Shown here: positions 4,236 to 31,454 of the stretch, piece after piece
Layout of the letters: every line of letters starts with the position of its first letter
How positions within the stretch are numbered: the first letter of the stretch is position 1
Assembly (NCBI GenBank): GCA_933822405.4
Contig: CAKOGP040001869.1
Span: 120,641-184,640 of the forward strand
Reading direction: 5' to 3'
DNA length: 64,000 nucleotides
Source of the DNA: Cylindrotheca closterium
Taxonomy: Eukaryota; Bacillariophyta; Bacillariophyceae; Bacillariales; Bacillariaceae
Translations under genes and position numbers: made by a program
Notes under the pieces: model-generated
Databases searched by the model: none
What the model was told of the DNA's origin: nothing
The model's input: only the letters and a program-made list of their open reading frames with translations

Positions 4236-4548
4236 TTTTCACGATGGAAAATGAGAGATGATAGGAGATACTGTACTCGTACCTGGTACCGTACACTGTA
4301 CTATTTGTGAACGATGTTGGTGTGAAAGCGTTTCCGTTGATCAACAATCATCAACAACAAATGAAAATTGTGTCATTTTTTCTCTCCCGTCTGTTCTTCG
4401 TCAGATATGTAGATTGACGAAATATCGAATTCTGGATTCTGGATTCTCTGGCCATACCGAGAGTTAACCATCATCTCCCAAAACCCATCACCTCCCAAAA
4501 CCCATCACCCATCACCATTTTGTGAGCGACTTTCAAACAGAAGGGTAC
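4236..4548. other. Intergenic with a TACC/GGTA-rich cluster
   Basis: Holds the promoter side of the RsmE-like gene. A run of GTAC/GGTACC elements lies at 4269-4303 (TACTGTACTCGTACCTGGTA then CCGTACACTGTACTA). A short direct repeat of cccatcacc/cccaaaac elements lies at 4476-4516. No coding sequence seen. Confidence 0.5.
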
Positions 4549-5739: not shown

Positions 5740-6095
5740 TAGTGAAGAGATTGAGAGCCGCATCCCATCAAGCGTTAATTGACTGGGAGGGTACAAATGT
5801 GTAATTAGTTGCAGTCCGATCCGAAACCTTTGACTTTTCATTTCGACGAAGCATTCGAAGCGGTCGATTGAGAATTCGTGTCATGATCAAGAATTTGTGT
5901 CACGCGTCAAAACAATAATTTAAGGAATGAGATGAAAATAAACCATCAAACTCGTTCACGACAATAACAGCCTCATCTCCGAATTGTACATAACCAACTC
6001 ATCTTATTTGGTGCGAGGCATCAAGGCACCAATAGATCGTTTACCTACTCCATTGTTGAGAGGCCGCGCTTCAAGTTCACAAGTGCTAGTCCACA
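5740..6095. other. Intergenic, no gene seen
   Basis: Between two plus-strand genes; it should contain the terminator of the first and the promoter of the second. No feature recognised. Confidence 0.5.
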
Positions 6096-7438
6096 ATGAA
6101 TTCTGAATTGGTTCCGTTTCAAGCGAACCCACGACTCGCAGGGGAAATTGGTTTGGGGCTATCAGCCGTCTTGTGGCTTGTAGCATCGTGGCGTCTAGTC
6201 TTCCATTTGTTTGTGCGGAAACAAGATGATAGCGAAAATGATGTAGACGAAGAATCTCCGACAAACGACCCAATGTCATCAAGTTGGTGCCAATGCACTC
6301 CTTCATCATGGTTCACACGACGGAGATCATTTCATACATTGCTGTGGATGTCTCAAACTATTGAAATATTTGCGTGAGTGAAATAGAAATGGTGAAAATC
6401 TTCCTTCTGCAAACGTGCATCCATCTCATATTTTCTTTCTGTAGGTACATCAACATATCTGGTCTGCATCCGTTGACAAAGACGCCAAGCTTTGCCGAAG
6501 AGCTTGGGTACATATTATTGGATGTGACAGGACGATCAGTACTGGAACTCTTGTCATTTGCAACCATTACAGGGCTTTGGCTCAAGACTGCTCTAAGGTC
6601 AGGGCCAACAAGAGGCTTGGGTCAAGGACATGACTTTCGGATTCGACTGTTTCCAGCACTGTTCTTGGTCACCGTTCTTCTCCTAGTTGTATTATCTGCA
6701 TCCTTGTCGACGGTTGTCTCTTTAGATGATCGATCTGGTAGTCTACAGAAGATTCAGAACTCGGATCTATCAAGGATTCAACTCTTGCTGGAAGCCGTTG
6801 CCTGGGGTCTTCACTCCCTAGTGGTTTTCGAATGTTTATTGTTGACGTGGAAGCGAATAGAGACAGTGGTGGAGCCATCTAGGGAGCGCAGAATACTGCT
6901 TTGCAAAGCAGTTTTGCCAATGTTGACAACGGCCGTGCTGTATCTTATCCGTTGTCTATGGCTTGTTGGCATTTACTTTCACATTCGAGGAACACAACGT
7001 GGATCTTGGTATTGGTGGATTGCCTTTCAGTGGTGCCCCACGTTACTTTCCGTCAGCATGCTTCTCTACTCGGCACGAAAACGCGACCAAACGACAACAG
7101 GCCAGCTGCAGGAGCCCCTGCTTCGACCAGCAAGACCACCCGCTGAAGCCTTTCTTGCATTCTCTAGGCACCGCAACGGCGAAGATGTTGACGATTCCTT
7201 TATTCTGAACAGTCCATCTGCAAGAGCGCTGATATCAGAAGTGGAATCAATATCTGACGTTGGGAGTGTTGAAGACCTCGAAAGTCGATCTTCTCGTAGT
7301 CAAGAAAACGAAAGGGCACCGCCCCCAACCGAATCATGCATAAGAGCAAATCTTCAACCATCCAAGCGACAGAGTGAGATGGAAGGACACGAAGAGCTCA
7401 ATACTGAGCTGCAACTTGCGCAAATGACTGAGAAATAA
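6096..7438 (+). CDS. Seven-pass membrane protein, possibly THH1/TOM1/TOM3-like
   Basis: Two exons, 6096..6373 and 6445..7438, 423 aa. The 71-nt intron starts GTGAGT and ends CTGTAG, and splicing reads IEIFAYINISGLHP. I count about seven hydrophobic segments, including LGLSAVLWLVASWRLVFHLF, FPALFLVTVLLLVVLSASLS, a segment around VAWGLHSLVVFECLLLTW, LPMLTTAVLYLIRCLWLVGI and WWIAFQWCPTLLSVSMLLY. The C-terminal ~110 residues are hydrophilic and Ser/Glu-rich. The layout (an ELGYILLDVTGRSVLELLSFA helix, then LLEAVAWGLHSL) recalls the TOM1/THH1 family of membrane proteins, but the similarity is weak, so this is tentative. There is no plastid presequence. Confidence 0.75.
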
Positions 7439-7458
7439 TAGCTTTTGATTTTCTATTT

Positions 7459-8511
7459 TTATCCAGATGACTCCTCGTCACCGCCTGCAGCGTCGTCGTC
7501 TTCGTCGTCCTCTTGTGATCCGCCACGGCCTCCAACAACTGGTCCAACGACAAACTTCTCAGAGTCTACTCTCTTTGATGCTGTCACGCCATCTGGAAAG
7601 ATGAGACGATCCATTCGAAGGACATCCTTCAGCACAACACCAGTGCAGTCAAGTTCGATTTGTTCTGGTATCGGGGCACCTTCTTCAACGAGGCACTCAA
7701 TATGCTTGCTCACTGGGATGATGAAACCATCACGTCTCAACGCGAGACTCTCCTCTGTGTTGGCGAAAACAATAGGAATCTTCAGTGGTCGGCCTGGGAA
7801 GTATCGAACAAAGTTAGCACAGTAGATGCTTCCTTGGACAGGGTGTCTCTGGACATTGCGTGGAACAACGCGGTGGACTGTTCCTTCGGTATCGCTTTCA
7901 TCTTCGAACACAGTAAGATCGTACACTCGGCTTTCGAATCGTCGATGGAATCGATCCAATTCACGTTGTAGTGTGGGCCATGGGGTTTTCAACATTGTCT
8001 TGGATTCTGGAGTGTTGGAAAGCACTCCAAGGTTGGGGTCACTTCCATACAACATACCAGGAATCATTTTGGCATATCGCAGTCTTCGGCAAGCGTTGCT
8101 TCCTTCTTCTTCGCGAATGTATGATTGCAACGTTCGGATATTTAGCGCTTGTTGCGCTTCGTTTCCAAGACCCTTGTCTACTCTAGGAGCACCATATTCG
8201 CTGCCTTTGCCTTTCTTTTCTGGGATGTCAATATCAGCTACCCCAAGTTGTTCCAAGACTTCATCGGGAATGATAAAGCCATCACTCGCAGTGTCTTCTG
8301 AACTTTCAAAGTTGGCTTCAAGAAAGGCGGCAACCTTTGGATCTGCGTCCACAGCTTCTTGCGTCAGTCCACTGACGAGTTGGCTAACATCCTCGACCTT
8401 GTAAGCAGAAGACAAAGCTCGGTTGCTGCATCTACTGCCACCTTGGAAAGTAATCGGTCGTTGAACAGAAATCAAACGAGATATCAAGGAATAGGAACGG
8501 ATTCGAGACAT
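7459..8511 (-). CDS. Ribosomal protein bL25, mitochondrial type
   Basis: Single exon, 350 aa. The start is the ATG at 8511 (MSRIRSYSLISRLIS), which gives an Arg/Ser-rich mitochondrial presequence; the frame stays open upstream but without coding character. The bL25 core begins near SNACRRLRYAKMIPGMLYG, the hallmark of the L25/TL5 family that binds 5S rRNA in bacteria, and continues through a C-terminal beta domain (FIIPVSKHIECLVEEGAPIP, IELDCTGVVLKDVLRMD). About 100 residues lie between the presequence and this core, longer than in bacteria. The end is an acidic tail (SQEDDEDDDAAGG). It converges on the 7-TM gene, with about 20 bp between stops. Confidence 0.85.
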   Translation of the reverse strand: MSRIRSYSLISRLISVQRPITFQGGSRCSNRALSSAYKVEDVSQLVSGLTQEAVDADPKVAAFLEANFESSEDTASDGFIIPDEVLEQLGVADIDIPEKKGKGSEYGAPRVDKGLGNEAQQALNIRTLQSYIREEEGSNACRRLRYAKMIPGMLYGSDPNLGVLSNTPESKTMLKTPWPTLQRELDRFHRRFESRVYDLTVFEDESDTEGTVHRVVPRNVQRHPVQGSIYCANFVRYFPGRPLKIPIVFANTEESLALRRDGFIIPVSKHIECLVEEGAPIPEQIELDCTGVVLKDVLRMDRLIFPDGVTASKRVDSEKFVVGPVVGGRGGSQEDDEDDDAAGGDEESSG

Positions 8512-8852
8512 GTCAGTGGTGCATGTGACAAGGTTGTGTGATGTGTTACTGTTTATTGTCTCTTTTCGTCTGAGCCACGGATCCGTTGACGGACAATTTT
8601 GAGGGTATTGCGAGAGAGAGTTTATCCGGGGGAGCGAATTCTTCATGCCCCCACTCACCACCAAGGATACCGGTAGAGTCACAACACTTTGTATTTCCAT
8701 CCTAATACATCGTATTAATATCTGAGGGTTAATACTACTAAAGTACTGCACGAGATATAGGTTGTTGATGACTAGCTTGAGTAAGGCAATCATACGTGAT
8801 TCAATTGAGTACAACTCTACAAGTATCTGATTTATCTGATGATTCTGTAACA
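8512..8852. other. Intergenic, no gene seen
   Basis: Lies between the bL25 start and the HisG stop, both on the minus strand. AT-rich (around 8690-8830). The open frame running through it has a composition unlike either neighbour. Confidence 0.5.
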
Positions 8853-9843
8853 TTACATTCGAGAATTTTCCAATTCCAATACCAAAATATCTGTAGCCCC
8901 GATATCGTGGAGGGCATCCATTTTCTCTGGAACTTCCTTCTTTAGCACGAGAGAAGATACTGCTTTCATTCCATCTGCTTCCAAGTTTGTGATGGTGGGC
9001 GATCTCTTTCCTGGAGAGACTTCTAGTGCCTTCGGCAGGAGATCTTCCGAGATGTTGTACATAACCAAGCAGTACTTTGTAGCTGTGATGAATCCTTCGA
9101 GACGCTTTCTGATAAGGTCTACTAGATCCTTGTGGGTAGAGTTGGGGTTAGCAATAAGCATAGCTTCTGTCTCCAATACTTCGTGGACAACCTCAAGACC
9201 GGCCGCCTAAATCAAACAGTCCGTTAGACGACGATCTTGAAAACAAAAAGGGGACATCCAGTTCACATGGTCCCTCAAAGATCCTCCATAAAACACTTAC
9301 CCTCATTGTGGTTCCTGTTTCCACAAGATCGACAACAGCATCTGCCAAACCTAGGCCACAGGCTGCTTCGACGGATCCGGAAATAAAGCTTATAGTTGTA
9401 TTAGTTCCCTTCTTCTCGTCGATCAATTTGAAAAATTCCTTGGTGGTCTCTGGGAAACTAGTGGCAATTCGTTTTCCAGCAAGCATTTCGACATCGGTAA
9501 TTTTCTTTACGACAGGAGCTTGAACAGAAAGCTTGCACTTTCCAAATCCAAGGTCCATCACTCTGTCGACGGTTACACCACTTTCCTTCACGACGTCCCA
9601 ACCAGTAATCCCGACGTCAATATCACCTTTTCCAACGAATGTGGCAATATCCTTGGCTGGCAGGAAGATCAAAGTAATTGGAAGTCCTGCTTTGCAGATA
9701 GCAACATCCAATCGATCGGCTCTGTTGAATTCAATACCTGCGCCCTTCAACATTTTCACGACCTTTTCGTACAAGCGTCCCTTCTTTGGGATGGCGAATT
9801 TGCAGTATCCTTCAGGACTAGAGTTGGGTGCGGAAGCGGACAT
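8853..9843 (-). CDS. HisG: ATP phosphoribosyltransferase, long form
   Basis: Two exons, complement(8853..9206, 9301..9843), 298 aa, the size of the bacterial long-form enzyme. The intron is GTAAGT...TTTAG, 94 nt, phase 0. The enzyme couples ATP and PRPP in the first step of histidine synthesis. Visible landmarks are the N-terminal FAIPKKGRLYEKVVKML, a periplasmic-binding-like core with DIDVGITGWDVV, the PRPP-binding region (ISGSVEAACGLGLADAVVDLVETGTTMR), and a C-terminal regulatory domain (IANPNSTHKDLVDLIRKRL ... DALHDIGATDILVLELE) that binds histidine in long-form enzymes. I see no signal peptide or clear transit peptide after this ATG; an upstream targeting exon cannot be excluded. Confidence 0.92.
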
Positions 9844-14203: not shown

Positions 14204-14398
14204 GGTTTCTTTTGTTGTTTTCAATAGATGCTCGTTTCCTGAAAACACCTTGGAAACGTACGACATCAGACGATGACAAAAAGTAAAGAGATACGAGGTA
14301 AAGACCGGAGGACAACAGACAGATCAGGAATAAGTCCAAGGAGTCGACAATCACAAAATTTGCGGTATAGAAACACAAGAGAGCATGAACAGTCATCA

Positions 14399-16726
14399 AT
14401 GAAGAGTTCTCGGTTGGCTCTCCGGTCTCTCGGTCACTTTCAACGCAGATATATTCGGTCTAGAAAATTGCAGCCTTCGAATCTGTCGCATCAGGATGTG
14501 AATGAGGATGAAACATTTCATGGTCACGTTTCAATTAGAAGATTCTTCTCGTCTTCAACATCATCAAACACGCCCAGCATTCATCACGCGCAAGCCAGAG
14601 AATTCTTGGACAAACTGAAAACCGGAAGCTTCAACACTTCTATTGTTCCGCAGAGGGTTGAACAATTATTGATTGCTTTGCTCAAAGGCGACAACACTGC
14701 AAATGATGGCCCATTAGCATTGCAGCTGCTGAATTCTGCTATTATGCACTCCAACCTACCGAATGAGCGACTCATTCCAAGATTGTTCTCCCTGGCCTGC
14801 CAGATTATGGTACGAAGTGGCCATTCGCTGGCATGGAATGAAGTCCATCATCAAATATGGAGATTGCTAGATGGGCACAAGGAATTCTTGATCAATGATA
14901 TTCCCTACAATACCCATCATGTGAACGACGCCTGTGTTCAGCTAATATCGCTGACAGTCAGTCAGTATGGTAGAAAACGACGTATGGACCACAATACTTC
15001 CCAGAAAATACAACAATTGATCGCTGAACTGAAACGACAATACAAGGATCCAAAGATACCACTTGGAGCCAGTGTAGATGGCTTCAACTCTTTCATTATG
15101 TATTATTGTGACATTGGAAAGCCGAACAAAGCTTTGGAACAGCTTCACTGGATGTTGAATGTCTCATCAAAGTCCAAACAAATGTTGGAACCGAAACTCT
15201 CGAGTTTTTCATTGACCATATCTGGTTTTGCCAACGACAGTGACCCAGATAAGGCGACGGAAATCATTCAATGGATGTTGTCGTCATACAAAAACAAAGC
15301 GAGCCCAATCCCTGCTCCCAATCGAGCTTGTTTCAATGGCTTGTTGCACGCATGGGCAAAGAGCAGTCGCAAGGATGCAGGGTCAAAGGCAGAACGAGTG
15401 CTGGATTGGATGCAACAGCTGTACGAATCCGACCAGCTGGACACCCAGCCTGATGACATTAGCTTCGCCACCTGCATTAATGCTTGGGCTCGAAGTCCTG
15501 GACGCGAGTCACCAGCTCGTGCAGAAGCGTTGCTTCATAAGATGTTGATACTGCATGAAAGTGGCAATGGTGATAGTATCAAGCTTTCGTTATCGGCATT
15601 CTGTTCAGTGATGGATGCATGGGCAGGATCTGGTGATAGGGCTGCACCGCAAAAAGTGGACGCAATTTTAGATATTGTCGAAGAACGATCGAGCTCAATG
15701 GAGGACTTTGAACTTACAGCATTCCCATACACAATTCTCATCAAGTCATGGGAGCGTGCAGCCAGTGGGACAAAAGATCGGAATAGACAACTAGAGTGCA
15801 GCGACAACGCTTTCAAAGTCTTGACTCGAATGCAAAATATGGGCATAGTACCGCCGCCAACAACGTATAATGCAACCATCATGGCGCTAAATTCATCTTC
15901 GCCTATGAATGCAATTTTCTACTTTTTGCAGCTTGAAGAGCAGTACAGACAATGCAAAATAAAGCTTGATACAAGAACTTTCAATTGTGGCTTGAACGCT
16001 ATTGCATCCATGATGAAGCCAGATGCTGCAGAGAAGGCTACGGAAATGCTTTCGAGGATGAAGGAGTATGCAACTAAAGACTCATATGTGCAGCCTGATG
16101 AAACCACCTTTAACATAATTCTGAAGGTGTTGTCTCGAAGCAATTTAGAAGATGCAGCTCATCGAGCAGATGAACTTTTGCAGGACATGATTACTATGAA
16201 GTCAATACGATCATCGCATGTCAGTTTTTCCACTTGCATCATTGCGTGGGGGCGAAGTCAAGCCAAGGACAAAATTCAACGCGTAGAGAAGCTTCTTGTA
16301 CAATTCGAAAAGACGCAAAAGAAGAACCAAAAAGCGGGGAAAGTGGGGTCGAATGCAGTGTATAATGCAGTCTTATCGGTATGCTACCACAACGGATCGG
16401 GCGAGTTTCTGGACCAAGCTCGAGAAACGGCCACCATTGCCATGCAGACGCTTCGCAACGCCAAAGCAACAGCGGACAAGGCCACCTACGAATCTTTCTT
16501 CAAAGTCATGACATTTGCTCCAGTGGATCCAGCGAAAGAAAACCTTGTAGAGACCGAATTTCGTAGGTGTATCGAGGATGGTCTTGTCTCCGTGGATTCG
16601 CTCAAGGTGGTTAAAGCTGTATTTCCTTCTGTTGCTGAGAAGTACCTTGGTGAACACCACGGGACAAACGGAGAGTCTATTCCAAGGCAATGGTCCAAAC
16701 AGATAAGAAGCGGATCAAGAAGATAA
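14399..16726 (+). CDS. Pentatricopeptide repeat (PPR) protein, organellar
   Basis: Single exon. Starting from the ATG at 14399 gives 775 aa with an Arg-rich presequence (MKSSRLALRSLGHFQRRYI), typical of mitochondrial import; the frame also has an ATG at 14273 (817 aa). PPR units of about 35 residues follow one another, e.g. RACFNGLLHAWAKSSRKDAG, ISFATCINAWARSPGRESPA, AFCSVMDAWAGSGDRAAP, TTYNATIMALNSSSPMNA, TTFNIILKVLSRSNLEDAA and AVYNAVLSVCYHNGSG. PPR proteins bind organellar RNA in a sequence-specific manner to aid processing, stability or translation. The target here cannot be read. The stop is 2 bp from the stop of the converging deaminase gene. Confidence 0.9.
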   Translation: MKSSRLALRSLGHFQRRYIRSRKLQPSNLSHQDVNEDETFHGHVSIRRFFSSSTSSNTPSIHHAQAREFLDKLKTGSFNTSIVPQRVEQLLIALLKGDNTANDGPLALQLLNSAIMHSNLPNERLIPRLFSLACQIMVRSGHSLAWNEVHHQIWRLLDGHKEFLINDIPYNTHHVNDACVQLISLTVSQYGRKRRMDHNTSQKIQQLIAELKRQYKDPKIPLGASVDGFNSFIMYYCDIGKPNKALEQLHWMLNVSSKSKQMLEPKLSSFSLTISGFANDSDPDKATEIIQWMLSSYKNKASPIPAPNRACFNGLLHAWAKSSRKDAGSKAERVLDWMQQLYESDQLDTQPDDISFATCINAWARSPGRESPARAEALLHKMLILHESGNGDSIKLSLSAFCSVMDAWAGSGDRAAPQKVDAILDIVEERSSSMEDFELTAFPYTILIKSWERAASGTKDRNRQLECSDNAFKVLTRMQNMGIVPPPTTYNATIMALNSSSPMNAIFYFLQLEEQYRQCKIKLDTRTFNCGLNAIASMMKPDAAEKATEMLSRMKEYATKDSYVQPDETTFNIILKVLSRSNLEDAAHRADELLQDMITMKSIRSSHVSFSTCIIAWGRSQAKDKIQRVEKLLVQFEKTQKKNQKAGKVGSNAVYNAVLSVCYHNGSGEFLDQARETATIAMQTLRNAKATADKATYESFFKVMTFAPVDPAKENLVETEFRRCIEDGLVSVDSLKVVKAVFPSVAEKYLGEHHGTNGESIPRQWSKQIRSGSRR

Positions 16727-17632: not shown

Positions 17633-19258
17633 ATGTCACACGAAAGCACAGTGGGCAAGGAGGACCTAGTGGTAGGTCAGGAATATTTCGGTTCCATTGT
17701 CGTTCAAGTAAGCCAGGACGTCCAAGATTCAAAAGATACATACAAAATCAAGCGGACAGTAACCCTGAAGTCAGGCGTGGTATTGATAGAAGATTATCAC
17801 CGATCCAAAAGCCTCGGTGAAGTTGAATCCTACGAGAGCTCGTTGCCAGCCTCGGAAATCGACGAACCGAAGAAGGATGATAGTGATTTACGAGCGAAAG
17901 CTCGTGCATTACTCGCTGCGAAAAAGAAGAAAGCTGAGCCAGAGCCCGAGCCTAGTGAGTCTTCGGAATCTGAAGCTCCTCCATCTATTTTAGATGATAA
18001 CTGGGAAACTCTTCCAGCGGTAGTTATTGCAGAAGATGACGTCCCCGACTTGGAAGCGGTGGCTATGAAATCTGAAGAACCCACCCAAATAGGTGTCTGG
18101 CGAACAGATGAAAATACCAAAGATTTTGAACCCATGGATGTGGTCATTCACAAAGAAGAGCCAACAGATTTGGAACCAGATGAACCTCATGGACAAGTTG
18201 TTATAGCAAATGATGCCAAGCCAAACAAGGTCGGAAAGATTGCTCCAGGAAAGCTCATATTTTTGGCGCCTGACGCAACACCTGATCCAGTTGATTGTAA
18301 ACCCGTGGGACATTGGAGACCAGGAAGACTTGGACAAGGCTGGCCACCAACCGGTGATGGAGGTGAACCCAGGAAGGTTGGAAAGCTTCCGAAATGGCAA
18401 GCTGGCGGTGGCTGGAAAACCGGCAATGCAATTGTATACCCAAAGAAATCAGTACCCAACGTTAATTTTGGTGGCACTTCTCGAGGTGTTTGGAAGTCGA
18501 AAAATTCTGTAGACGACAAATGGAAAGCTCAACCTGTGACTCTGTACAAAGGTGATCCAGACATTGATGATGATAGACCACAAGGTGTATGGGGAACGGA
18601 CCCTGGTGCAAAACCAGACGTACTTGGACAATGGAAACCTAAAGACTTGCATTTTTATCCTCCTGGAGAGAGCCCTGAGAATGATAAGGAGTGTGTTGTC
18701 CAAGGCAAATGGTCGTTTGCAGAAAAAAGTTCGTGGCCGCCTTCGACGGAAAGCAAAACTGGTAGAAGTGTTGGCAAGCTGAACATGAGCAAATTAATGT
18801 CCCATCAAAAGGCTACAGTATTTCCAATTAAAAAGGCACCTAAAAGAAGTAACAGTGGTGGCGCTACCAATGGGGTCTGGAAGTTTAAGGACAAAGATGC
18901 CGAAAGGAAAGCTAGTAAATGGATTCCCGCGAACGTTGAAGTGGTCAAAAATGGAGAAGAAGCACATGATTGGAATGATGATGGGAGACCAAATGGAGTC
19001 TGGGGCGTCAGCGCCAAAACCGACCCCGATGATAAAGACTTGAAACCGACCGATGTCCACTTTTATCCTCCAGATGAAAAGCCAGAGGAGGATTTCAAAC
19101 CGGTTGGAAAGTGGAGAGTAACGCCACGCTCAAGTTTTCCTCCGACGTCTGTTAGTAGGTCTCTCAGTCCAATGCCTGATAGCAAAGAAGAAGCCGCGGC
19201 TAAAGAAGCGAGAAAAGTTGGAAAGCTACAGTTGCCTGGTGCATTTAGCGGAAAGTAA
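17633..19258 (+). CDS. GVW/WPP-module repeat protein, short paralogue
   Basis: Single exon, 541 aa from the ATG at 17633 (MSHESTVGKEDL); the frame extends upstream only to a GTG. I do not recognise the family. Residues ~8-75 form a domain shared with the next gene (GKEDLVVGQEYFGSIVVQV ... YKIKRTVTLKSGVVLIEDY). A Lys-rich segment and a short PEPEPEPSES linker follow. Then come three ~130-aa modules: one of type A (starts SILDDNWETLPAVVI, ends GQGWPPTGD) and two of type B (with VWGTDPGAKPDVLGQWKPKD and HFYPPGESP; then NGVWGVSAKTDPD, HFYPPDEKP). The end is KVGKLQLPGAFSGK. There is no signal peptide or membrane span, so it is probably cytosolic or nuclear. It is tandem with the giant paralogue. 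Confidence 0.85.
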   Translation: MSHESTVGKEDLVVGQEYFGSIVVQVSQDVQDSKDTYKIKRTVTLKSGVVLIEDYHRSKSLGEVESYESSLPASEIDEPKKDDSDLRAKARALLAAKKKKAEPEPEPSESSESEAPPSILDDNWETLPAVVIAEDDVPDLEAVAMKSEEPTQIGVWRTDENTKDFEPMDVVIHKEEPTDLEPDEPHGQVVIANDAKPNKVGKIAPGKLIFLAPDATPDPVDCKPVGHWRPGRLGQGWPPTGDGGEPRKVGKLPKWQAGGGWKTGNAIVYPKKSVPNVNFGGTSRGVWKSKNSVDDKWKAQPVTLYKGDPDIDDDRPQGVWGTDPGAKPDVLGQWKPKDLHFYPPGESPENDKECVVQGKWSFAEKSSWPPSTESKTGRSVGKLNMSKLMSHQKATVFPIKKAPKRSNSGGATNGVWKFKDKDAERKASKWIPANVEVVKNGEEAHDWNDDGRPNGVWGVSAKTDPDDKDLKPTDVHFYPPDEKPEEDFKPVGKWRVTPRSSFPPTSVSRSLSPMPDSKEEAAAKEARKVGKLQLPGAFSGK

Positions 19259-19553
19259 AGATGACATTAATATTAATACAATACTTTTTTTGTGTGCGAC
19301 AAGCAGTTTACGGGTATACGATATATATATCTGTTCGTCTTCATGTATCGGCATAATAGTGACATTTTTTAAAGCGCAATCGATCCGGATGCTCGGCATC
19401 GGATACGGGATTGCTGGCGCGATCAGTCATTATGTTGTGCGACACACAAGTGTGTGCCTTTTTTTGGCCAACCGATCCGAAAGTTTCAAGTTGTATCCAA
19501 AAAGGTAAACAAGTGATCGATTGTGGAAGGCAATCAACAAACCTCGTTCCACC

Positions 19554-22500
19554 ATGGCGGACATTTCAAAAATGACAAAGGAGGAGATGCTCGCCCAAAG
19601 TAATATTGGGAAAGGAGATCTTGTGATCGGCCAGGAATACTTTGGATCTACGATCACAAGTGTCAAGCAAGAAGTCACGGAGAAGGATGATTATTATCAC
19701 ATCAAACGAACTGTTTCATTGGCGAACGGCTTTATGCTGATGGAAGAGTCAAAAAGGCATACTAGTAATGGAGTGGTGGAATCTAAAGAATATGGAGCGG
19801 ATGCTGAAGACGCGGAGCCAGCACCAAAGAAGGATGATACTGAAGCTCGGGAAAAAGCTCGAGCGCTATTGGCGAAGCGTAAATCCGATAAAGCCTCAAA
19901 GAAGAAGGACAAGGTCAAAAAGGAAAAGAAGAAGAAGAAGAAGAAGAGGGAAAGTAAAACAGATGATGAAGAACCTGAACCTGGGAGTTCTGCAAACAAG
20001 TCAGAAGAATTGAAGCCACCCGAGCCTGAACCTGAACCTGAGCCTGAACCTGAGCCTGAACCTGAGCCTGAACCTGAACCTGAGCCTGAACCAGTCCGAA
20101 GAGCTCCGTCACCATCTCCTGAACCAGAGCCGGAACCTGAACTTGAACCGGTCCAAAGAGCTCCATCACCGTCTCCAGAGCCGGAACCTGAACCTGAACC
20201 AGAGCCAGTGCCTGAACCGGAACCGGAACCAAAAAAGCCTGGAATCTTGGACGATAGCTGGGATATTCTTAACGCTAGGGTGTATCCAAAATCTGAAGCA
20301 CCAGCGACTGCAAATGAGGATGAAGACGAACCACACGAAGGTGTTTGGAAGCACGATGACACTACAGATGAATCTCAGTGGCCTACAATGGATGTCGAAA
20401 TATATAGAGAGAAACCGACGGATCTAAAGAAAGAAGAACCATGCGGAATCGTTTCAGTAGGAAATGATTCGAAACCAAATCGAGTTGGAAAGTTGAATCC
20501 TGATCAACTCAAATTCTTTGCGCCTGGAGAGAAGCAGGATCCTGGAGACTGGAGTTTGGGATTCTGGAGGCCAAAATATGATAGAGATATGTCCTGGAAA
20601 CCACCAGGTCCAAAGATGAAAGACGAACCCAAGAAATTGGATCTTCCAGATTGGCTCAAAAATAAGAACTTTGCTCCTCAGAAAGCAACTGTATATCCTC
20701 TACAGAAAGCACCAAAGAGTGTCATCGATGATAAACCGCGTGGGGTTTGGAAACCTAAAATCCCAATACCGGATGATGTCAAACCAGAGGAAATCGTTTT
20801 GCATCCAACAAGCGCAACTATTGACGACGGTAAGAAGAATGGCCTGTGGGGGACCAAACCAGATTCGACGCCAAATGACAACGGCCAATGGCAACCCGAA
20901 CATCTCCTCGTATATCCGCCTGGTGAAACTCCTGATGATGACAACGAATGCACCCTTCGTGGGAAATGGGATAAACCAGAGGACGAGAAGAAAACTCCCG
21001 GTAAACTCGCTCCACCGACGGACGAAAAAAAACCGAACGATGGGAAGAAAAGTGTTGGAAAACTTAAATTACCTGGTGTATTCGGCAGTCAGCCAGCTTC
21101 CGATACGTTGAGTAGCGCTGCCCCCAGAGGAAGAAAGTGGACTCCAAAACCAAAGCCAGCAGCCAAACCTGACGAGGAAGGAACAGATTCAGCTTTGAAG
21201 CCTGGAGAGAAATCGATTGATGCCCCAGCTGCGGTTGCTGATTGGGATAAATTCCAAGCAACCGTTGTTCCACTATCCAAGAAACGACTTGGAGCCGATC
21301 TGGCAACAAAGAAAGGAGATTGTGTTGGAGTATGGGAGACTGAGGATGGTACAGACGATTCAGGTTGGGATCCCTTACATGTTGTTGTCTACAGAACCAA
21401 ACCAGATAATATTAAACCTGAAGATTCAACTGGACTTGTGGCCATCCCAGAGGATGTTAAAGACAAACCCATCCGGAAGTTGATGCCAGAGCAAATAAAA
21501 TTTTTTTTACCTGGGTTGAAGCCAAGTGACGAGTCTAGAGACAAATTGATAGGGTCATGGGTTGGAGGCAGCTTCCCACCGTCAAGCGAAAGTGCCCCAA
21601 AAAATCCAAAAATTGGAAACTTTCCCATTTGGACATGTGGTAAGGAATCGATCCCTATAAAGGCTCTTGTCTTCCCACGGCAAAGGGCTCCAAAAGAGAA
21701 TAAAATGGACGAAGATCCAAAGGGAATTTGGAAGTCCAAGGACCCGCTTCCCGATGACTGGGTTCCAAAGGAAGTCATCATCCACCCGAATAATGCATCA
21801 ATTGACAAAGGCACTCCAAATGGTGTTTGGGGTACGAACTTGAATTCAGCACCTGACAAAGATGGACAATGGAAACCAGAAGATGTACTCTTTTATCCAC
21901 CAAATGAATCTCCTGATGATGATTGTAATACGCTGGGTAAATGGACTCTTGGCGACAATGAAGAATGGCCACCTACTTCAGATGGACCAACAAAGCCACA
22001 GCGCTCCCATTCTCCTCACTATGCCCGTGATGTTGGCGATCGGGGAAGACAGATTCCTGACGATATTCCAAGAGAGATTATGGGTATCCCGGACGAGCTT
22101 CCACCGTGGCAAAAGGACAATGATTGGAAAGATGGAAAGGCTGTCGTTTATCCTGAAGGAAAGGCTCCCAAGAACAACAATGATAACGTTTCGCGAGGCA
22201 CATGGCGATCAAGAGACACATTACCCGACGACTGGATCCCGCAAGAGGTCACAATCTATCCGCAGCATACGGCTGTAAGTGACGATATGCCAAACGGGGT
22301 GTGGGGGACTGACCCTACTTCAAAACCTGATGAGAACGGTCAATACAAGCCAAAGGATGTGGTTTTCTATCCTCCAAGTGAGACTGTAGATGAAGAAGTC
22401 ACACCCCGTGGAAAGTGGGCTCTTGGAGAAAAGAGTAAATGGCCGCCGCCATCTGAGTCGCCCCAAAAACCTCGAAGAACATTCTCACCGTACCAGCCAA

Positions 22501-25500
22501 GGCAAGCAGACATGGAAAATGAACCGGGAATGATTGGGACAATATCAATGGGCGGTGACAATGATTGGGTGCCAATCAAGGCTATTGTCTTTCCTACCAA
22601 GCAAGCTCCAGAAGAGAACAAAGTTGATGAAGAGCCAAAGGGAATTTGGAAGTCCAAGGACCCGCTTCCGGATGACTGGGTTCCAAAGGAAGTCATCATC
22701 CACCCAAATAATGCATCAATTGCTGAAAACACTCCAAACGGTGTTTGGGGTACGAACTTGAATTCAGCACCTGACAAAGATGGACAATGGAAACCAGAAG
22801 ATGTACTCTTTTATCCACCAAATGAATCTCCTGATGATGATTGTAATACGCTGGGTAAATGGACTCTTGGCGACAATGAAGAATGGCCACCTACTTCAGA
22901 TGGACCAACAAAGCCACAGCGCTCCCATTCTCCTCACTATGCCCGTGATGTTGGCGATCGGGGAAGACAGATTCCTGACGATATTCCAAGAGAGATTATG
23001 GGTATCCCGGACGAGCTTCCACCGTGGCAAAAGGACAATGATTGGAAAGATGGAAAGGCTGTCGTTTATCCTGAAGGAAAGGCTCCCAAGAACAACAATG
23101 ATAACGTTTCGCGAGGCACATGGCGATCAAGAGACACATTACCCGACGACTGGATCCCGCAAGAGGTCACAATCTATCCGCAGCATACGGCTGTAAGTGA
23201 CGATATGCCAAACGGGGTGTGGGGGACTGACCCTACTTCAAAACCTGATGAGAACGGTCAATACAAGCCAAAGGATGTGGTTTTCTATCCTCCAAGTGAG
23301 ACTGTAGATGAAGAAGTTGTCCCCCGTGGACGATGGGAGTTGGGAGAAAAGAGTAAATGGCCACCACCATCTGAACTACCAAGGAAACCCCACCGCACTG
23401 TCTCTCGTAATCTGGAGCCAACTACCAAGACCAAAGAAGGTGATGCAGATGGGAAACCAGCAGTTCACAAGCTTCCAATCTGGCAAACTGATGACGACTG
23501 GGTCGAAGACAAGGCAATGGTTTATCCTAAGTCGAAGGTTCCAAGAGACAACACAGACGCATTGTCCAAGGGAACATGGAGGTCGAGGGACTTGCTTCCG
23601 GATGACTGGATTCCTCAAGAGGTTATGATATACCAACAGACACCTGATTTAAGTGACGATACGCCAAATGGTGTGTGGGGAACTGACCCAGCTTCAAAAC
23701 CCGATGAAAATGGGCAGTTTAAGCCAAAGGATGTCCTTTTCTACCCCCCAAGCGAATCTCCAGAGGAAGAAATTGTCCCTCGAGGAAGATGGGCAATGGG
23801 CAGCAAAAAGCAATGGCCACCAGCCTCCGAGGAATCGCCAAAGATACCACATCGCGTGAGCTCACTGAAACGGCAGAAAGAGACAACGACGCTGCCTGTT
23901 TGGCAAGACAAGGATGATTGGGTGCCAGTGAAGGCAATTGTATTCCCCAAGAATGAAGCTCCAGAAGAAAATCGGGATGATACATCAAGGGGCATTTGGA
24001 AATCGAAGGACCCGCTGCCGGAAGATATGGTGCCAAGTGAAGTCATAATACATCCAACCAATGCCCAAATCGACAAGGATGCTCCTACTGGCGTATGGGG
24101 AACCAACTCTTTTTCAACTCCAGATGAAAATGGGCAGTGGAAACCTGAAGATGTTTTCTTCTATCCTCCAAGCGAGAAACCACAAGAAGACTGTACTCCC
24201 CGCGGTAGATGGGAATTGGGAGAAGATACGCCTTCTTGGCCACCCACAACTAGGCCTCCAAAGCAACCCAACCGTGTGGAGAGTCCAGCATCAAGGCAAC
24301 GCCCTGCGCAAGATGCTTCAAAGTTGAAAGCCCCTTTGCCTTTTGACGGAAGTGGTCATTCAAGGAGCCAACGTCGCAAATCCCAGCAGCGACCATCGTT
24401 ACCGTCAATTCTGGAAGAAAACTGGGATTCTCTTCCTGCCACAGTTATTCCACCCTGTGACTCCAATGAGGCACCGGAAGATTCAACGGAACCACATCTC
24501 GGAACTTGGAAGCATGATGACAATATTGATGATAGTGATTGGGCTCCCTATGGTGTCATCATCAGCAAAAATCGACCGGATGGCCTTGGACAAGATGAAC
24601 CTCACGGAGCAGTAGCGGTTGATGAGGGTGCGAAGCCAAATAGCGCTGGAAAGATAGATCCAGAACGGTTGCATTTCTTCACACCAGGAGAAGAACCGAA
24701 GGCTCCTATGAAAAAGGTGGGCATCTGGAGACCTGAATCACCCACAGCAGGATGGCCACCACAGGGGAAAGGATCAAAAAAGCCTAGCTTTCCATCAATT
24801 CTGGACGACAACTGGGACATTCTTCCTGCAATGGTGATTCCAGCCTCAGATGAGGAAGCAGAAAAGACACCTGAAGATCCAAGTGATCCACACCTTGGGA
24901 CCTGGAAGCCAAATAAGGATACAAATGATAAAGATTGGGCTCCATTTGAAGTCGTGGTCAACAAAACTGAACCAGATGACATCTCCGAAGATGAACCTCA
25001 CGGCATTGTTGCAGTTCCAAAGGGTGTTGAACCAAACGATGCAGGCAAGTTGGATCCCAAGGATTTGCTCTTCCTTCCACCAGGAGAGAAGCCTGATTCT
25101 GGTATGAAGGAAGTTGGTCACTGGAGACCAAAGAAAGTTGACGGAGACTGGCCTCCGCCAAAGAAGGGTTTTACAAAAGCACAGCTTCCAACAAACAAGC
25201 TACCAAAGTGGCAGACTGATAGCGATTGGACCAAGGGCAGAGCCGTAGTTTACCCGAAGGAAATTGCACCGAAGAAGAACGAGGACAATGTCACCAGAGG
25301 TAGTTGGCATACAGAGACACCGCTATCAGAAGAGTCATTCGCAGACCTTTTGGAACCCCAAGAGGTCACCATTCAACCAGTTGGTGCAGAGCAAAAAGCA
25401 GATGTTCCAAATGGAGTTTGGGGAACAAATGTAGCCTCGGAACCTGACGAAAATGGACAATGGAAACCCGAAGATGTTCTCTTTTATCCTCCCAACAAGA

Positions 25501-28064
25501 ATCCTGGAGAGGGATATATACCAAGAGGACGATGGTCCCTTGTTGGCAGCGCTCCCAGATCCCTTCTTTCCCCCCAGCCACCAAAACGATCAAGCTCTCC
25601 CTCTCCTATTCTTCCTAGAAAAGGAGAATGGTCTGCAAGAAGCCCAACGACTCCAAATTCCTCAAGACAAGTTGGAAAATTAAAAGTGCCCAATGTTTTT
25701 GGTGAAATGGCTCCACCCATTAGTCCTGGACGCCCTGGTCGTCGTCCAAAACGAGTCTCAAAGCTGAAAAGAGAAAGCAGTTTGGTGAATTGTGACAAAT
25801 CCATCCTAGACGATAATTGGACGACACTTCCTGCAAAGGTATTCCCAGTATCAGCGGCCATCAACATGGCTGCTCCTGATGCGACTGATCCAGTTATTGG
25901 AGTCTGGAAGCCAAAGGACAACAGCAATGACTCGAATTGGGCACCTCTAGAGGTGATTGTGGAGAAGGAGGAACCCAAAGATTTGGACCCAGATGAGCCA
26001 CATGGAATTGTTGGTGTCAAGGAAAATGCAAAACCCACAGTTAATGGAAAACTTAAACCAACTGATGTTGTTTTTTATCCACCTGGGGAGGAACCACAGC
26101 CAGGTGATGATGTCAAGAAGGTTGGTTCCTGGAGAGATGGCAAACTGAATAAGAAGTGGCCCCCAGCAACTGTTGAGGAAGATTCCACGGATAAGAAGGC
26201 AAAATCAAATAATGCTGTTCCATCAGTTGTGGACAACAATTGGGACACCCTTCCCGCTGTTGTGATTCCAGCTTCAGACGCAAATAACGCACCGGAAGAT
26301 GCAACTGATCCACACCTTGGAACTTGGAAGCAAAACGACATGACAGATGACAAGGATTGGAGCCCACTAGATGTTGTAGTCAATAGGACTGAACCTGATG
26401 ATTTTGCTCCCAATGAACCGCACGGTATAGTAGTTATTCCTGAAGATTCTAAACCAAATTCTTTTGGCAGGTTGGATCCAAAAGACCTCCAATTCCTTGC
26501 ACCAGGCAAAAAGCCTGATACTGGTATGAAGGAAGTTGGCCATTGGAGACCAAAGCAATGGAACGGCAAGTGGCCGCCAACAAAGAAATCTGCAGAGAAA
26601 TCACCTCCTCTAACCAAGAAGCTACCAAAGTGGCAGACTGACAGTGGCTGGAGAAAAGACTCGGCTATCATTTTCCAGCCTGACAAAGCACCAAAGAAGA
26701 ACAAGGATAACGTGAGCAGGGGTATTTGGAAAACAGATGAACCTTTACCAGCCGCTTTACCAGCGCAAGAGGTTATTATTCAACCCATTGGTGCAGAGCT
26801 AGAGGACGAAGGCAAACAAAACGGAGTATGGGGTACCAGTGCAGATTCTGTGCCCGATGAAAATGGACAGTACAAACCCGGCAATGTTTTGTTTTATCCT
26901 CCCACCAAGGAACCTGGAGAGGAGTGTATCCCAAGAGGTCGATGGTCACTTGTTGGTCCTGCCCCCGAGTCTGTTGCTTCTGCATCCACAAAACCAACCC
27001 GCATCCTTTCGCCGATGGCTCCTAGCAACAAGGAATTCAAATCGCCTCGCCTACCAGGGAAAGTTGAAAGTAACGGAAGTGAAGAAGAAGCAGCAAAGTT
27101 AGCAAGAAAGGTTGGAAAGCTCAAGGTGCCTTTTGCTTTTGGCCAGAAGCCAAATACGGATGCTCCTATCAGCCCAGGGCGAGCTCTAAGTCGATCACCT
27201 GGTCGCCCTGGATCTGCTCGCCGCCCACTTCGCATGTCCAAATTCAACAAACAAGCAAGTTGGGTGAATCGCGGAAAGTCCCTCCTGGACGATGACTGGG
27301 CCACACTTCCAGCTAAGGTCATTCCAAAATCAACATCCAAAGATGTTGTCCCTGATGTAACCAATCCTGTGATTGGTGTTTGGAAGCACAAGGATGACGC
27401 CACAGACGACTCCGATTGGGGTCCTCTGGATGTGATTGTTGCAAAGGAAGAACCTAAAGACCTGGCCCCAAATGAACCACATGGAGTGGTCGTTGTCAAA
27501 CGGGATGCAAAGCCCACAACAGATGGAAAGCTGAAACCGGACGAGGTTGTTTTCTATCCACCTGGAGAAGAGCCTGAACAGGACATGAATAAAGTGGGTA
27601 CATGGAGAACTGGCAAGTTGAATAGTCCATGGCCGCCAGCAAAGATTGATAAAGCAGCAGCCCCCATTAGAAGAGGCAAATTGGCAACTCCAGTTATCTC
27701 GGGAGAACCCAAGGTTGCAGGCATCAAAAAAGTTCTGACGAAGACTGAAGATGATGAATCTGGAAAGGGCGACGGTGTTGCTACAAAAGCTGCAGAAAAA
27801 GAGCCAAACCCCGATGAAGCAACTGATTCCAAGCCTGCTGCTGAGAAACCAGTGATTGAACCAACCTCAACCACTACAGCCCAGCCACCGCCAAAACCTT
27901 TTCGAGCTTCAACAAGTGTGATCCAAGCAACCAAGCCAAAGCCACAACCACTACGAGCTTCAACAAGTGTGATCCAAGCAACCAAGCAGGATCCCAATAA
28001 TCCTCCTGCACCACGAAAGAGAGTCGGAAAGCTGAAGTTACCAGCTGCCTTCAGCGGGAAGTAA
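19554..28064 (+). CDS. Giant GVW/WPP-module repeat protein, 2836 aa
   Basis: One uninterrupted 8.5-kb exon; ATG at 19554 in an ACCATGG context. The N-terminal ~70 residues ([32 protein letters not shown]) match the upstream paralogue. Next come a Lys-rich block ([12 protein letters not shown]) and a ~70-aa Pro-Glu stalk (20023-20235). I then count 16 modules: 7 of type A ([12 protein letters not shown] ... DEPHGIV ... GHWRP ... WPP) and 9 of type B (KLPKWQTD ... [23 protein letters not shown] ... RGRW ... WPP), in the order A B A B6 A A B A A B A. Tags of the form VGKLKxPxxF occur near 21055, 25670, 27110 and at the C-terminus. No signal peptide, membrane span or catalytic motif is visible, so a structural or scaffold role is inference. 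Composition is rich in Pro, Asp, Glu, Lys and Trp. Confidence 0.9.
20023..20235 (+). repeat. Hexanucleotide GARCCT repeat coding for a Pro-Glu stalk
   Basis: gagcct/gaacct units alternate and encode (Pro-Glu)n, interrupted twice by the related segments [10 protein letters not shown] and [10 protein letters not shown]. The stretch separates the N-terminal domain from the first module of the giant protein. Confidence 0.9.
21822..22399 (+). repeat. Internal direct repeat, copy 1 (578 bp)
   Basis: Read base by base, this matches 22740..23317 without a difference I could see, at an offset of 918 bp. Similarity continues with scattered changes upstream to about 21710. It covers the end of one B module and most of the next. 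Confidence 0.9.
22740..23317 (+). repeat. Internal direct repeat, copy 2 (578 bp)
   Basis: Second copy of the 578-bp identical stretch. The offset of 918 bp is 306 codons, i.e. two B modules, so the reading frame is kept. Confidence 0.9.
27903..27987 (+). repeat. 34-bp direct repeat near the C-terminus of the giant gene
   Basis: The 34 bp at 27903..27936 recur at 27954..27987 (offset 51 bp, 17 codons) and encode [11 protein letters not shown] twice. Confidence 0.9.
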
Positions 28065-28180
28065 AAATGAGTAATAATGTTTTAAAAAGACCAGTGAAAA
28101 CAAATTTTTAAATATTGGAATATAAATTTTGCCAACATTTTCGTAGTCATATTCACATTTTTGAAATTCGTAAAATTGAT

Positions 28181-30727
28181 ATGATTCATTCGTTCATTCA
28201 TGGATTCATGGATTCAGTCGCCAACACCAACCATCGTCGAATTGAAAATCGCCTTTGCTCCTCAATGCCTTCCTTTATGGCATCGCCGATGCCATTTGCA
28301 TCGCCAGGGCGCGAAGCTTATTCTGAAAATGCACCTGCTAATGATAAGTCGTCGGTGCGATTGTCTTGCCTGAGTCCAGACGGCCGATCGGTTCATTCTC
28401 TTTCAATTGTAAGAGGACAAGGCCTCATTGAAACTCGTACCCTCCCATTGGATGGAACAGTAGAAGACAACGATGCGTCACCTTCTGGACCCTCTCTAAT
28501 ACGTGCCATACTGCCAGAGCAGATATCGCAAGCGTTGAGGAGATATCCGGCAATAGCACTACTTTGTGTGGATGTCGAATCCAATGCAACTTCCACTGTA
28601 CACCAAAGCCTGCCAAAACTGTGTTTGTACACACAGAGGGACGTCTTCGTTCTCGAAATTGGTTACCAAGTCACACCTGGAGTATCACAGACAGACAGAA
28701 CTGTTGTCAAGGTTACGGAACCTTTTGAAGGAGTCTTATTGGGATCCTCTCCTGGAACACGCGTTGTTTGCATTCGTCAGGCTCCTCAGCGTCACAATGG
28801 GTTTGCCATCATGTGCCCACCAAAATCGATGGCCATGATGATATTCGATCCCGAATCTAGCGAAACTAGCGTGGTGCTATACCACGGAACAAACGATACT
28901 ACCACTACGGCACTCGTGTACGGACAAGAACTCTATGACAAGAAGGATCATTTTACTAATTTTTGTTTTGGCCAATCGAGCGCCCTTTCACTTTTGTCCA
29001 ACACATCTATCATGATGTTGAAAGGATCCGGCGATGTATACATTGCTGGACCAGCTCTATTTCGAGGATCGGTGGTCCCCAGAGCTTTATTGGACACATC
29101 TTTGGAGTACTTGAGAAATGAAATCCAACAAACCGAACCGAATACTCCCAAGTGGCGGCAGACGCGATTGGCGTTGCAAAATCTAGCGGATGCATTTCCA
29201 GTTGGGGTAAAAGCTCAATTCTTGACAGCCGAAGCCCAGTCACCAATCTTTGAAGTCCCAGCTCAACTCCAAGGACCGGCTTTGATTGGTGAAGAATCCG
29301 ACGAGTTGGAAAGTATGGCCACTTGCATCGAATCGTTTGCAGCAGGAAATCTTGTTGGTTTTGCCATTGGACACACAGAAGGAATTGTCGAGTTCGGTGT
29401 GCTCGTTCCGAGCACTCTTGTTCCTCGATTTGCTTCAGAAAGCCACAAGGACATGCAGGTCTTGGACGATGAGTTCATCGGTGGAATGGTCATTACTCGT
29501 ATCGATCTGCGCGATGAGGAGGGCGATTTCGATCCGACCTCAAGCATGAACCTTGTCAAAGATCCATTGATCGATTCTGTTTTGCATTGCGTAACGGGGA
29601 CCCAAATCATCAGCGTTTCCACCAACACTCTCAAGATTATTGCCAAGGAGCTCAGTGATCAAGTCGGCACCGGGATGATGTCACCAATACTGAAACCGAA
29701 AACTGCTCAACCGAATACTACTGCTTGGCCGTGCTTGGACGTTACGAGTACTGAAGGCAACATTAATCGTGTCGTGGGTGCTGTTGTGAGTGGCGATGTC
29801 CAATTTGGTCACGTTCTGATTGCTCGACTTTCCAACAGTAAGTACTCTACTTCCCGAAGTTGCAACTTCTAAATGCATGACACAAATATTTCAAATCTGA
29901 CACTATATTTCTTACGCACATCAGACTCGATGGTCGCGGTCAATCTGACAGAGGCCCGCTTGTTGAAGGAAATGGAGATCTTTGACAAAAAGGAAGCCGG
30001 AAGTGCAAGTGATGCTAGGGTTGCAGAACTGAGCAATATAGCACCCCTGCACCAGATTATCGAACCACTTGCAAAGCAAGTAGTAGAAGGACTTGGGGGA
30101 CTGACAAAGGTTGTTGGAAGTGCCACTCCAATTGCCGCTGCGACTCCAGACCAGTTGGCAGCGGCAGTCGCGATCAAACAGAGTTGCGACGAGAAGATTT
30201 ATCTGCCACTAATTGAAATTACCGAACACTTGAAGAGTCGAAAGGAGATATTATCAGTCATGTACAAGAATCAAATGCTGCAACTTGACGCTGTTCAAAA
30301 TATGATTTCAAAGTTGAAGGAACGGGAAGCCATCATCAAGGAAATGACAGATGTAGCCAAAGCAAACTCGACCTCGCTCTCTCAGCGCAGTGCTGCAATC
30401 CTTCAATCCAGCAACGATCTAATGCCCAAGCTGTCTCAAGCTGAATACGATTACTTCCAAGAGCTGCGCAAGCTTGAAGAGAAGACTAGACAGTGGACAG
30501 CAGAATTTGAAGGGGTGCACAGTCGAGTCGATAGCCTTCAGCAGACAGTTTACGATGATACAATGCAAACTCTAGATGCGTTGCCGCAACAAAGAACTGA
30601 ATTGAGCCAGCTGCAAGGCAAGTGCACTACTTTGCTTGCCATCTTTGAGGACAAGCTGGATGACGCTGAGATGAAGCTAGATGACATCGCTGATGCTGCG
30701 GGTATGGAGCGAGACTCTGAAATGTAA
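28181..30727 (+). CDS. NUP88: Nucleoporin Nup88-like
   Basis: Two exons, 28181..29837 and 29925..30727, 819 aa. The 87-nt intron starts GTAAGT and ends ACATCAG, phase 1. The first two thirds look like a beta-propeller (repeated short strands such as LCLYTQRDVFVLEIGYQV and ALSLLSNTSIMMLKGSGDVYI), followed by an extended linker and a C-terminal ~200-residue coiled coil (LLKEMEIFDKKEAGS ... SKLKEREAIIKEMTDVA ... YFQELRKLEEKTRQW). This arrangement and the propeller motifs fit Nup88, which holds Nup214 and Nup98 at the cytoplasmic face of the pore. Alternative in-frame ATGs lie at 28208 and later. The start is only ~117 bp from the giant gene's stop. Confidence 0.72.
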
Positions 30728-30800: not shown

Positions 30801-31454
30801 TTAAAATGTATCCAGGGGGACAAGATATTGTCGGAATTCTCCATCTGATAGTTCAACCTGGAAGTATACTCCTCGGTAATCACCATCATATTGCTCCAGC
30901 ATGGCGTCTCCTGGCTTCCAAAGAGCATCGAACCCGAGGCCAGATTTTCGGATATCCGCAAAGCTGTAAACTCCACCAGAGTTATATTTGATGTAAACGC
31001 CATTTTTGATTTCTAGAGGGACACCATCCTTATCAGCACCGTGCAAGAGACCCCGTGGAAGCTCCAAGGTAGTCACAAACGATTTGAGAGCTTCAATCCC
31101 ATCCTGCATCGAAGATGCACAAATACCCAACATGCATCTTCCTTGTGCAGAATCCTTTGCTCGCTCTTCTGCAGCCGTTTCGGAAAGTATTCGAACTGCG
31201 GTTGGTATATAATCCTTGAGTTTCGAGGCAACTTCGTTGTCACCCTTGCCCCCTGCTGCTTCAGGATTGAAGAATCTGTCCCACTCACCAAGCAACAGAG
31301 ATGCGTCAGCGACGGTTTCAATTGCAGGAGCTTCAGCGTCCTCTGGAGACTGCAGCCAGGTCTTCAGAGAAGGCTCTTGAGCGGAGGCACTGAACGCAAG
31401 TGCCGTGTCCGACAGGTAAGTCGATAGGATAGTCAGAATAAGTATTCGGCTCAT
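30801..31454 (-). CDS. Plastid-targeted protein of unknown function, DUF1824-like
   Basis: Single exon, 217 aa. The N-terminus MSRILILTILSTYLSDTALAF is a signal peptide followed by an ALA-F junction, the ASAF-type motif with Phe at +1 that directs diatom proteins into the plastid stroma. The mature part contains GRCMLGICASSMQDGIEALK and NGVYIKYNSGGVYS, then YDGDYRGVYFQVE. This order (LGIC, YIKYN, Y-G-xRGV) reminds me of the cyanobacterial DUF1824 family, which would fit a plastid origin, but I cannot verify it. The gene converges on Nup88, with ~70 bp between stops. Confidence 0.8.
   Translation of the reverse strand: MSRILILTILSTYLSDTALAFSASAQEPSLKTWLQSPEDAEAPAIETVADASLLLGEWDRFFNPEAAGGKGDNEVASKLKDYIPTAVRILSETAAEERAKDSAQGRCMLGICASSMQDGIEALKSFVTTLELPRGLLHGADKDGVPLEIKNGVYIKYNSGGVYSFADIRKSGLGFDALWKPGDAMLEQYDGDYRGVYFQVELSDGEFRQYLVPLDTF

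Follow-up and report, generated by a model that had tools for sequence, protein, structure and literature searches.

The window analysed here is a 64,000-nucleotide stretch of the Cylindrotheca closterium genome (NCBI GenBank assembly GCA_933822405.4, contig CAKOGP040001869.1, positions 120,641 to 184,640 of the forward strand). It carries two tandem genes on the + strand, separated by 295 bases, which encode proteins of 541 residues (P0001, predicted mass 59.4 kDa) and 2836 residues (P0002, 314.5 kDa). Both consist mainly of a repeated tryptophan- and proline-rich module, and they are interpreted below as candidate multivalent scaffold proteins. An initial annotation, made from the letters alone, had described two tandem genes with a common modular plan, and the adjacent same-strand frames confirmed it. 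The features, located largely with profile hidden Markov models (HMM), are the following, in window positions.

17633-19258, +: short gene P0001, 541 aa (ATG 17633, stop 19258), with head, linker, modules A-B-C and C-terminal VGKL tag
17633-17839, +: P0001 N-terminal head domain, residues 1-69 (head profile)
17996-18349, +: P0001 module 1, type A, residues 122-239 (module HMM, E 3e-31)
18413-18742, +: P0001 module 2, type B, residues 261-370 (module HMM, E 8e-30)
18803-19144, +: P0001 module 3, terminal type C, in a clade with the last modules of 10 homologues (HMM, tree)
19217-19255, +: P0001 C-terminal VGKLQLPGAFSGK tag (sequence, motif count)
19554-28064, +: long gene P0002, 2836 aa, one uninterrupted open frame with 16 modules (ATG 19554, stop 28064)
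19587-19793, +: P0002 N-terminal head domain, residues 12-80 (head profile)
19797-20240, +: P0002 charged linker, a KKDK-rich part followed by a PEPEP-rich part (direct reading)
20253-20603, +: P0002 module 1, A (module HMM, as for all P0002 modules)
20667-20987, +: P0002 module 2, B
21240-21578, +: P0002 module 3, A
21657-21974, +: P0002 module 4, B
21681-22490, +: P0002 two-module block, copy 1 (copy 2 at 22599-23408, period 918 nt)
22119-22448, +: P0002 module 5, B
22560-22892, +: P0002 module 6, B, copy of module 4 (also duplication analysis, tree)
23037-23366, +: P0002 module 7, B, copy of module 5 (also duplication analysis, tree)
23493-23822, +: P0002 module 8, B
23913-24245, +: P0002 module 9, B
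24420-24761, +: P0002 module 10, A
24807-25157, +: P0002 module 11, A
25224-25538, +: P0002 module 12, B
25812-26165, +: P0002 module 13, A
26235-26579, +: P0002 module 14, A
26649-26948, +: P0002 module 15, B
27291-27638, +: P0002 module 16, A
28023-28061, +: P0002 C-terminal tag, 13 residues (sequence, motif count)

Both proteins share the N-terminal domain of about 70 residues that had been described. Its consensus, over about 69 residues, is GQEYFGS..V..V......Y.IKR.V.L..G..L.E, and residues 1-69 of P0001 and 12-80 of P0002 fit one profile, both being among its 14 seeds. The charged linker between head and module array is likewise present in both, with PEPEPE in P0002, and both proteins end in VGKL..P.AFSGK. 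The maximum 19-residue Kyte-Doolittle mean was 0.91 for P0001 and 0.90 for P0002, with no membrane-type stretch, and over residues 1-60 the highest 11-residue mean was 1.65 and 0.49, respectively. As the initial annotation had it, neither a signal peptide nor a membrane span was indicated in either protein by this hydropathy scan.

The module HMM was started from nine P0002 modules, five of type A and four of type B, and then iterated. Exactly 3 modules were found in P0001 and 16 in P0002, each with an E-value of 3e-23 to 4e-36 in a 20-sequence set, in agreement with the counts of the initial annotation; nine of the 16 P0002 modules were seeds and match partly by construction. The counts did not change with E-values set for 20000 sequences, a chosen figure that was also assumed for the later scans with the module, head, tail and ubiquitin-like profiles. 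By the higher-scoring seed profile, the order of modules in P0002 is A B A B B B B B B A A B A A B A. The repeated module thus stands as described, whereas its length does not, since the matched cores of the window proteins comprise 100-118 residues and the ~130 residues given before are reached only with the spacers. Retention of module matches required more than 70 positions at E < 1e-3, by which 121 of the 124 matches in P0001-P0019 and C46 (another gene of this genome) were combined into a single 114-position profile, or E < 1e-4, which gave a set of 159 modules. A separate alignment, A2, comprised 21 references and 30 of 39 further modules.

Each module contains an inner triplication. Split at the conserved G-x-W sites, it gives three units of ~36 residues of the form W-x-P-x-x-V-x-[IF]-x-P...P-x-G-x-W. 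Compared profile to profile, the first and second units scored 24.4, the first and third 14.7, and the second and third 21.8, while column-shuffled controls reached maxima of 14.5, 11.3 and 15.2, so that the observed value was attained by 0/100 shuffles in each case. With three units per module, 9 units are expected in the 541-residue protein and about 48 in the 2836-residue one. The near-invariant positions are chiefly the W and G of the G-x-W sites and several prolines.

The growth by module duplication proposed in the initial annotation is directly visible in the long gene. The two-module block is 93.8% identical in DNA over 270 codons, with nonsynonymous and synonymous divergences (dN and dS) of 0.038 and 0.17 and a dN/dS of about 0.22. 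Among the modules, the nonsynonymous proportion of differences (pN) was lower than the synonymous one (pS) in 49/49 pairs (21 A-A pairs from 7 modules and 28 B-B pairs from eight of the nine B modules, one being omitted), a result meaningful in direction alone because synonymous sites are near saturation. The modules of the window are coding sequence under purifying selection. Two near-identical copies of a two-module block were also read directly in the homologue P0018, so recent internal block duplication is not confined to P0002.

A FastTree phylogeny of 159 modules placed the last modules of 11 proteins, P0001 included, in one clade (support 0.985). The nine B modules of P0002 group by themselves (0.945), and a second clade unites five of its seven A modules (0.934), so that 14 of its 16 modules fall in two P0002-specific clades. 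By these groupings, terminal modules retain their identity while inner arrays expand by lineage-specific duplication.

Three protein searches yielded 23 homologues (P0003-P0025), a lower bound since each search scored only about 8000 candidates. All 23 carry at least one module and 22 carry two or more. P0003, a transcript of the MMETSP collection flagged as complete, is 82% identical to P0001 over its full length; P0010 is also an MMETSP transcript, and P0023 is an NCBI hypothetical protein from a Bacillariaceae metagenome-assembled genome. Pattern matches on viral contigs (69) and prokaryote contigs (30) included no relative, in a scan that reaches close relatives only.

Database searches agreed with the earlier statement that the family is undescribed. 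In Pfam, whole-protein searches gave no family for P0001 and a best E of 0.44 for P0002, with no credible enzyme domain, as the absence of an enzyme motif had implied. None of 51 modules searched singly exceeded a curated cut-off (best E 0.0051, Cornifin, one module). Among PDB chains the module profile had no match up to E 10, and the proteins themselves gave no credible family there. For the head, none of the 14 sequences passed a curated Pfam cut-off (best E 0.047), and the PDB search with its profile gave no credible family (best E 0.7). By these comparisons the module is without a convincing relative in Pfam or PDB, and the check for an already characterised family, proposed with the initial annotation, returned no convincing match. 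The single exception is P0013, which as a whole protein exceeds the cut-off of PF24534 HMA_PCA1 (27.8 vs 24.5 bits; a precomputed domain is also listed). No single stretch of P0013 passes, the best match spanning 25 of 68 profile positions; P0002 scores 10.7 bits and 2 of the 51 modules match, with a best E of 0.18. Membership was rejected, and the score is taken as many weak local matches added up over the repeats. No literature on the module family was found in titles and abstract beginnings, with most subscription journals and all bioRxiv preprints outside the search, and six short family peptide strings had no occurrence there.

The VGKL tag of the two C-termini recurs in the family. Across 29 family proteins, [VI]G[KR]L was counted 42 times outside modules, whereas shuffling gave an expectation of 0.82 and at most 4 in 200 rounds; the copies are not independent events because close relatives are included. 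Of these copies, 36 sit 9-13 or 21-30 residues past a module end, and the tag terminates 13 of the 29 proteins. Inside modules there are 23 more copies, at about one third of the outside density. This placement relative to the modules suggests that VGKL is a short docking motif.

The module is present in six genes of this genome, or seven including a borderline case. Those joined to tandem ubiquitin-like domains lie outside the window and hence beyond the view of the initial annotation. C46, C541, C249 and C392 were each read as a single open frame. C46 (L009:2063-4798:+) has 911 residues and 3 modules. C541 (697 residues) consists of a head, five ubiquitin-like domains, one module and a tail. 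C249 (822 residues) has one module followed by ubiquitin-like domains (4 stretches by Pfam, 3 by our profile), and C392 (L022:4060-8322:+; 1420 residues) one module followed by 16 such domains. The borderline case, C548 (L026:808-7887:+), is a 2360-codon frame with 22 ubiquitin-like domains, and the module at its start has a domain E of 0.0091 with the first profile and 5.6e-4 with the widened one. The first profile, built without the modules of C541, C249, C392 and C548, scored 66, 40, 41 and 22 bits on the respective cut segments, and at most 13.1 bits on 1000 shuffled segments. Across the module and the segment after it, C392 has matches to C249 (E 9e-26) and C548 (E 3e-16) as well. As for the array, the Pfam ubiquitin family (PF00240) matches 5 stretches in C541, 16 in C392 and 4 in C249, and a profile of C392 units matches C541, C392, C249 and C548. 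No paper on tandem ubiquitin-like arrays in diatoms was found, judged by title.

Three further loci carry such arrays, with no module found by profile. In C223 (L025:1279-3858:+, 4142-9310:+), two neighbouring frames hold 10 and 20 tandem ubiquitin-like domains, and their tails resemble that of C392 (E 2e-12 and 1e-10). C68 (L027:874-3645:-) and C113 (L028:522-2699:-) hold 9 and 5 tandem units, respectively. C46 shares with P0019 a C-terminal domain (YPQFFY or FPQFFY, then VYLGG) that gave no credible Pfam or PDB match, a single HAD-hydrolase match having E 0.028; a glutaredoxin-type end, considered as a candidate for it, has no credible Pfam or PDB support and was set aside.

C541 can be compared directly with one group of homologues. 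P0017 and P0020-P0025 combine a head with an ER/K-rich segment that looks coiled-coil-like by eye, 5-8 modules and a tail domain. Both end domains were also recognised in C541 (E 6e-9 with the head profile, E 2e-8 with the tail profile), whose single module groups with the last modules of these proteins (support 0.944). Where they carry the coiled-coil-like segment and modules between the shared head and tail, C541 carries five ubiquitin-like domains, so that the middle seems to behave as an exchangeable spacer or platform. With one gene to go by, an exchangeable middle between fixed ends seems a lead rather than a rule. A relation between the ends themselves, head and tail as mutual copies, was rejected, since the profile score of 12.5 was matched by 4/100 shuffles.

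Taken together, P0001 and P0002 are read as cytosolic multivalent bead-array scaffolds of diatoms whose length is set by duplication, with an estimated probability of about 0.5. In such a protein, the small head and a flexible charged linker would lead into the array of W/P modules, which would offer many copies of one binding or mechanical unit at fixed spacing. Partners would bind at the head and at the VGKL motifs, reach and valency would depend on the beads, and the middle, set between a constant head and tail, would be an exchangeable spacer or platform. Duplicating modules, a process observed in the long gene, would alter the length of the array, and such changes of length may serve a purpose of their own. 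Of the initial annotation's proposal, a large cytosolic scaffold or filament-like protein built by module duplication, the modular family and its growth by duplication are supported, while cytosolic location, scaffold action and the formation of filaments stay conjectural.

Several observations weigh against this interpretation. The head profile matches 23 of the 29 family proteins and has no match in C46, C249, C392 and P0019, nor in P0005 and P0007, which look 5'-incomplete; therefore, the head-array-tail plan is not universal. The view of C541 as a counterpart of the P0017 group depends on a single gene. In addition, the charge-hydropathy boundary puts 149 of 159 modules among disordered sequences, but it misplaces the folded control, a ubiquitin-like array, in the same way, which makes this plot uninformative as a test of folding.

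A bolder version of the scaffold reading, rather unlikely as it stands, would have an undescribed class of giant cytosolic bead arrays, in which a new triplicated W/P fold and mostly non-conjugatable ubiquitin-like folds serve as interchangeable beads between a fixed head and a fixed tail domain. Such arrays would work as rulers or springs of adjustable length and would organise structures peculiar to diatoms, for example the silica-forming apparatus or the gliding machinery.

The sister genes with up to 16-22 ubiquitin-like domains and the 314.5-kDa member suggest large diatom scaffolds of which no description was found. Should they act as spacers or platforms in shell building or motility, the length of the array could be tested and edited as a variable. 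With the profiles of head, module, VGKL and tail, any diatom genome can be searched for the family.

A doubtful alternative is a platform of the ubiquitin system, with the module as the recognition domain of a diatom ubiquitin-related network, the genes that combine module and ubiquitin-like domains as proteasome or p97-type adaptors, and the window proteins as their multivalent partners. The fusion of the module to 3-16 ubiquitin-like domains in three genes speaks for it, as does the fact that the domains of C541 and C392 also match UBX- and Npl4-type models. However, no ubiquitin-like domain was found in P0001, P0002 or C46 with the C392-unit profile (domain E 0.01), nor any Pfam ubiquitin match in P0001 and P0002, and with 16 units a spacer role is equally likely. 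Double glycines number two in C392, three in C249 and none in C541, and just one of them, in C392, lies between two ubiquitin-like units. Since they are so rare between units, the usual release and conjugation would be impossible for most of the units, and this scarcity argues against conjugation and for a structural use of the arrays.

It is similarly improbable that the proteins, disordered, highly charged, P/W-rich and lacking folded modules, form condensates or coat the silica deposition vesicle on its cytosolic face. About 15 prolines per 114 module residues would suit such a coat, as would the charge-hydropathy result, with the same folded control to be set beside it, and the many silicon transporter matches in this diatom genome (12 family matches in the 47.6-Mb genome G000, 11 at E < 1e-80). 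Nevertheless, the near-invariant W, G and P positions across the aligned modules, about 28 WFYVIL residues per 114 and the position-specific clades suggest folded units, and the proposal comes without any silica evidence. Nine of the transporter matches are near full-length and lie on two contigs, C4 (3) and C361 (6).

Arms like the calreticulin P-domain, as the extension of a chaperone or lectin, are very improbable. The likeness of G-x-W-x-P-x-x-[IV] to calreticulin type-2 repeats is the point in their favour, but the window proteins have no Pfam Calreticulin match, the module profiles miss the calreticulin-matching loci of this genome (L030 and L031), and neither the PDB search nor the hydropathy of the N-terminus fits; calreticulin-like repeats were rejected on the Pfam, PDB and module-profile evidence. 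Finally, the 93.8% identical block with its 918-nt period could be cited for an open frame that arose by chance or for a repeat array produced by misassembly; this is barely credible given the constraint within that block and in all module pairs compared, and the same kind of architecture in homologues from other sources, including transcriptomes.

Neighbouring genes in the window, for a PPR-repeat protein (14273-16726), a DUF1824 protein (30804-31454, -) and a BEACH-WD40 protein (42045-44267, -), showed no functional link to the module genes. Directly downstream, an open stretch (28115-29869) is followed immediately, in the same frame, by a Nup88-like segment (29873-30724), and the two are perhaps a single intron-split nucleoporin gene.

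Compared with known diatom proteins, the window proteins share a lysine-rich repetitive sequence with silaffin-like proteins. A published screen for these required an N-terminal endoplasmic reticulum signal peptide (PMC5501833), whereas P0001 and P0002 lack a strongly hydrophobic N-terminus in the hydropathy scan.

As far as found, nothing like the module, the VGKL system or the link with ubiquitin-like arrays has been described before, while the tandem-domain scaffold is known as a general kind. Polyubiquitin, ISG15 and OASL are tandem ubiquitin-like proteins, and the sister genes C541, C249 and C392 resemble them in holding tandem ubiquitin-fold domains. They differ in the number of units, which reaches 16 in C392 and 22 in C548, in the W/P module attached to them, borderline in C548, and in the single inter-unit double glycine across C541, C249 and C392; P0001 and P0002 hold none of these domains. 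Titin, plakins and filamin are giant modular scaffolds of the cytoskeleton and of adhesion with tandem domains. Unlike theirs, the diatom module has no immunoglobulin, spectrin or plakin match in Pfam. The organisation is nevertheless alike: a long array of small domains, length gained by duplication, and linkers with charged or proline-rich repeats.

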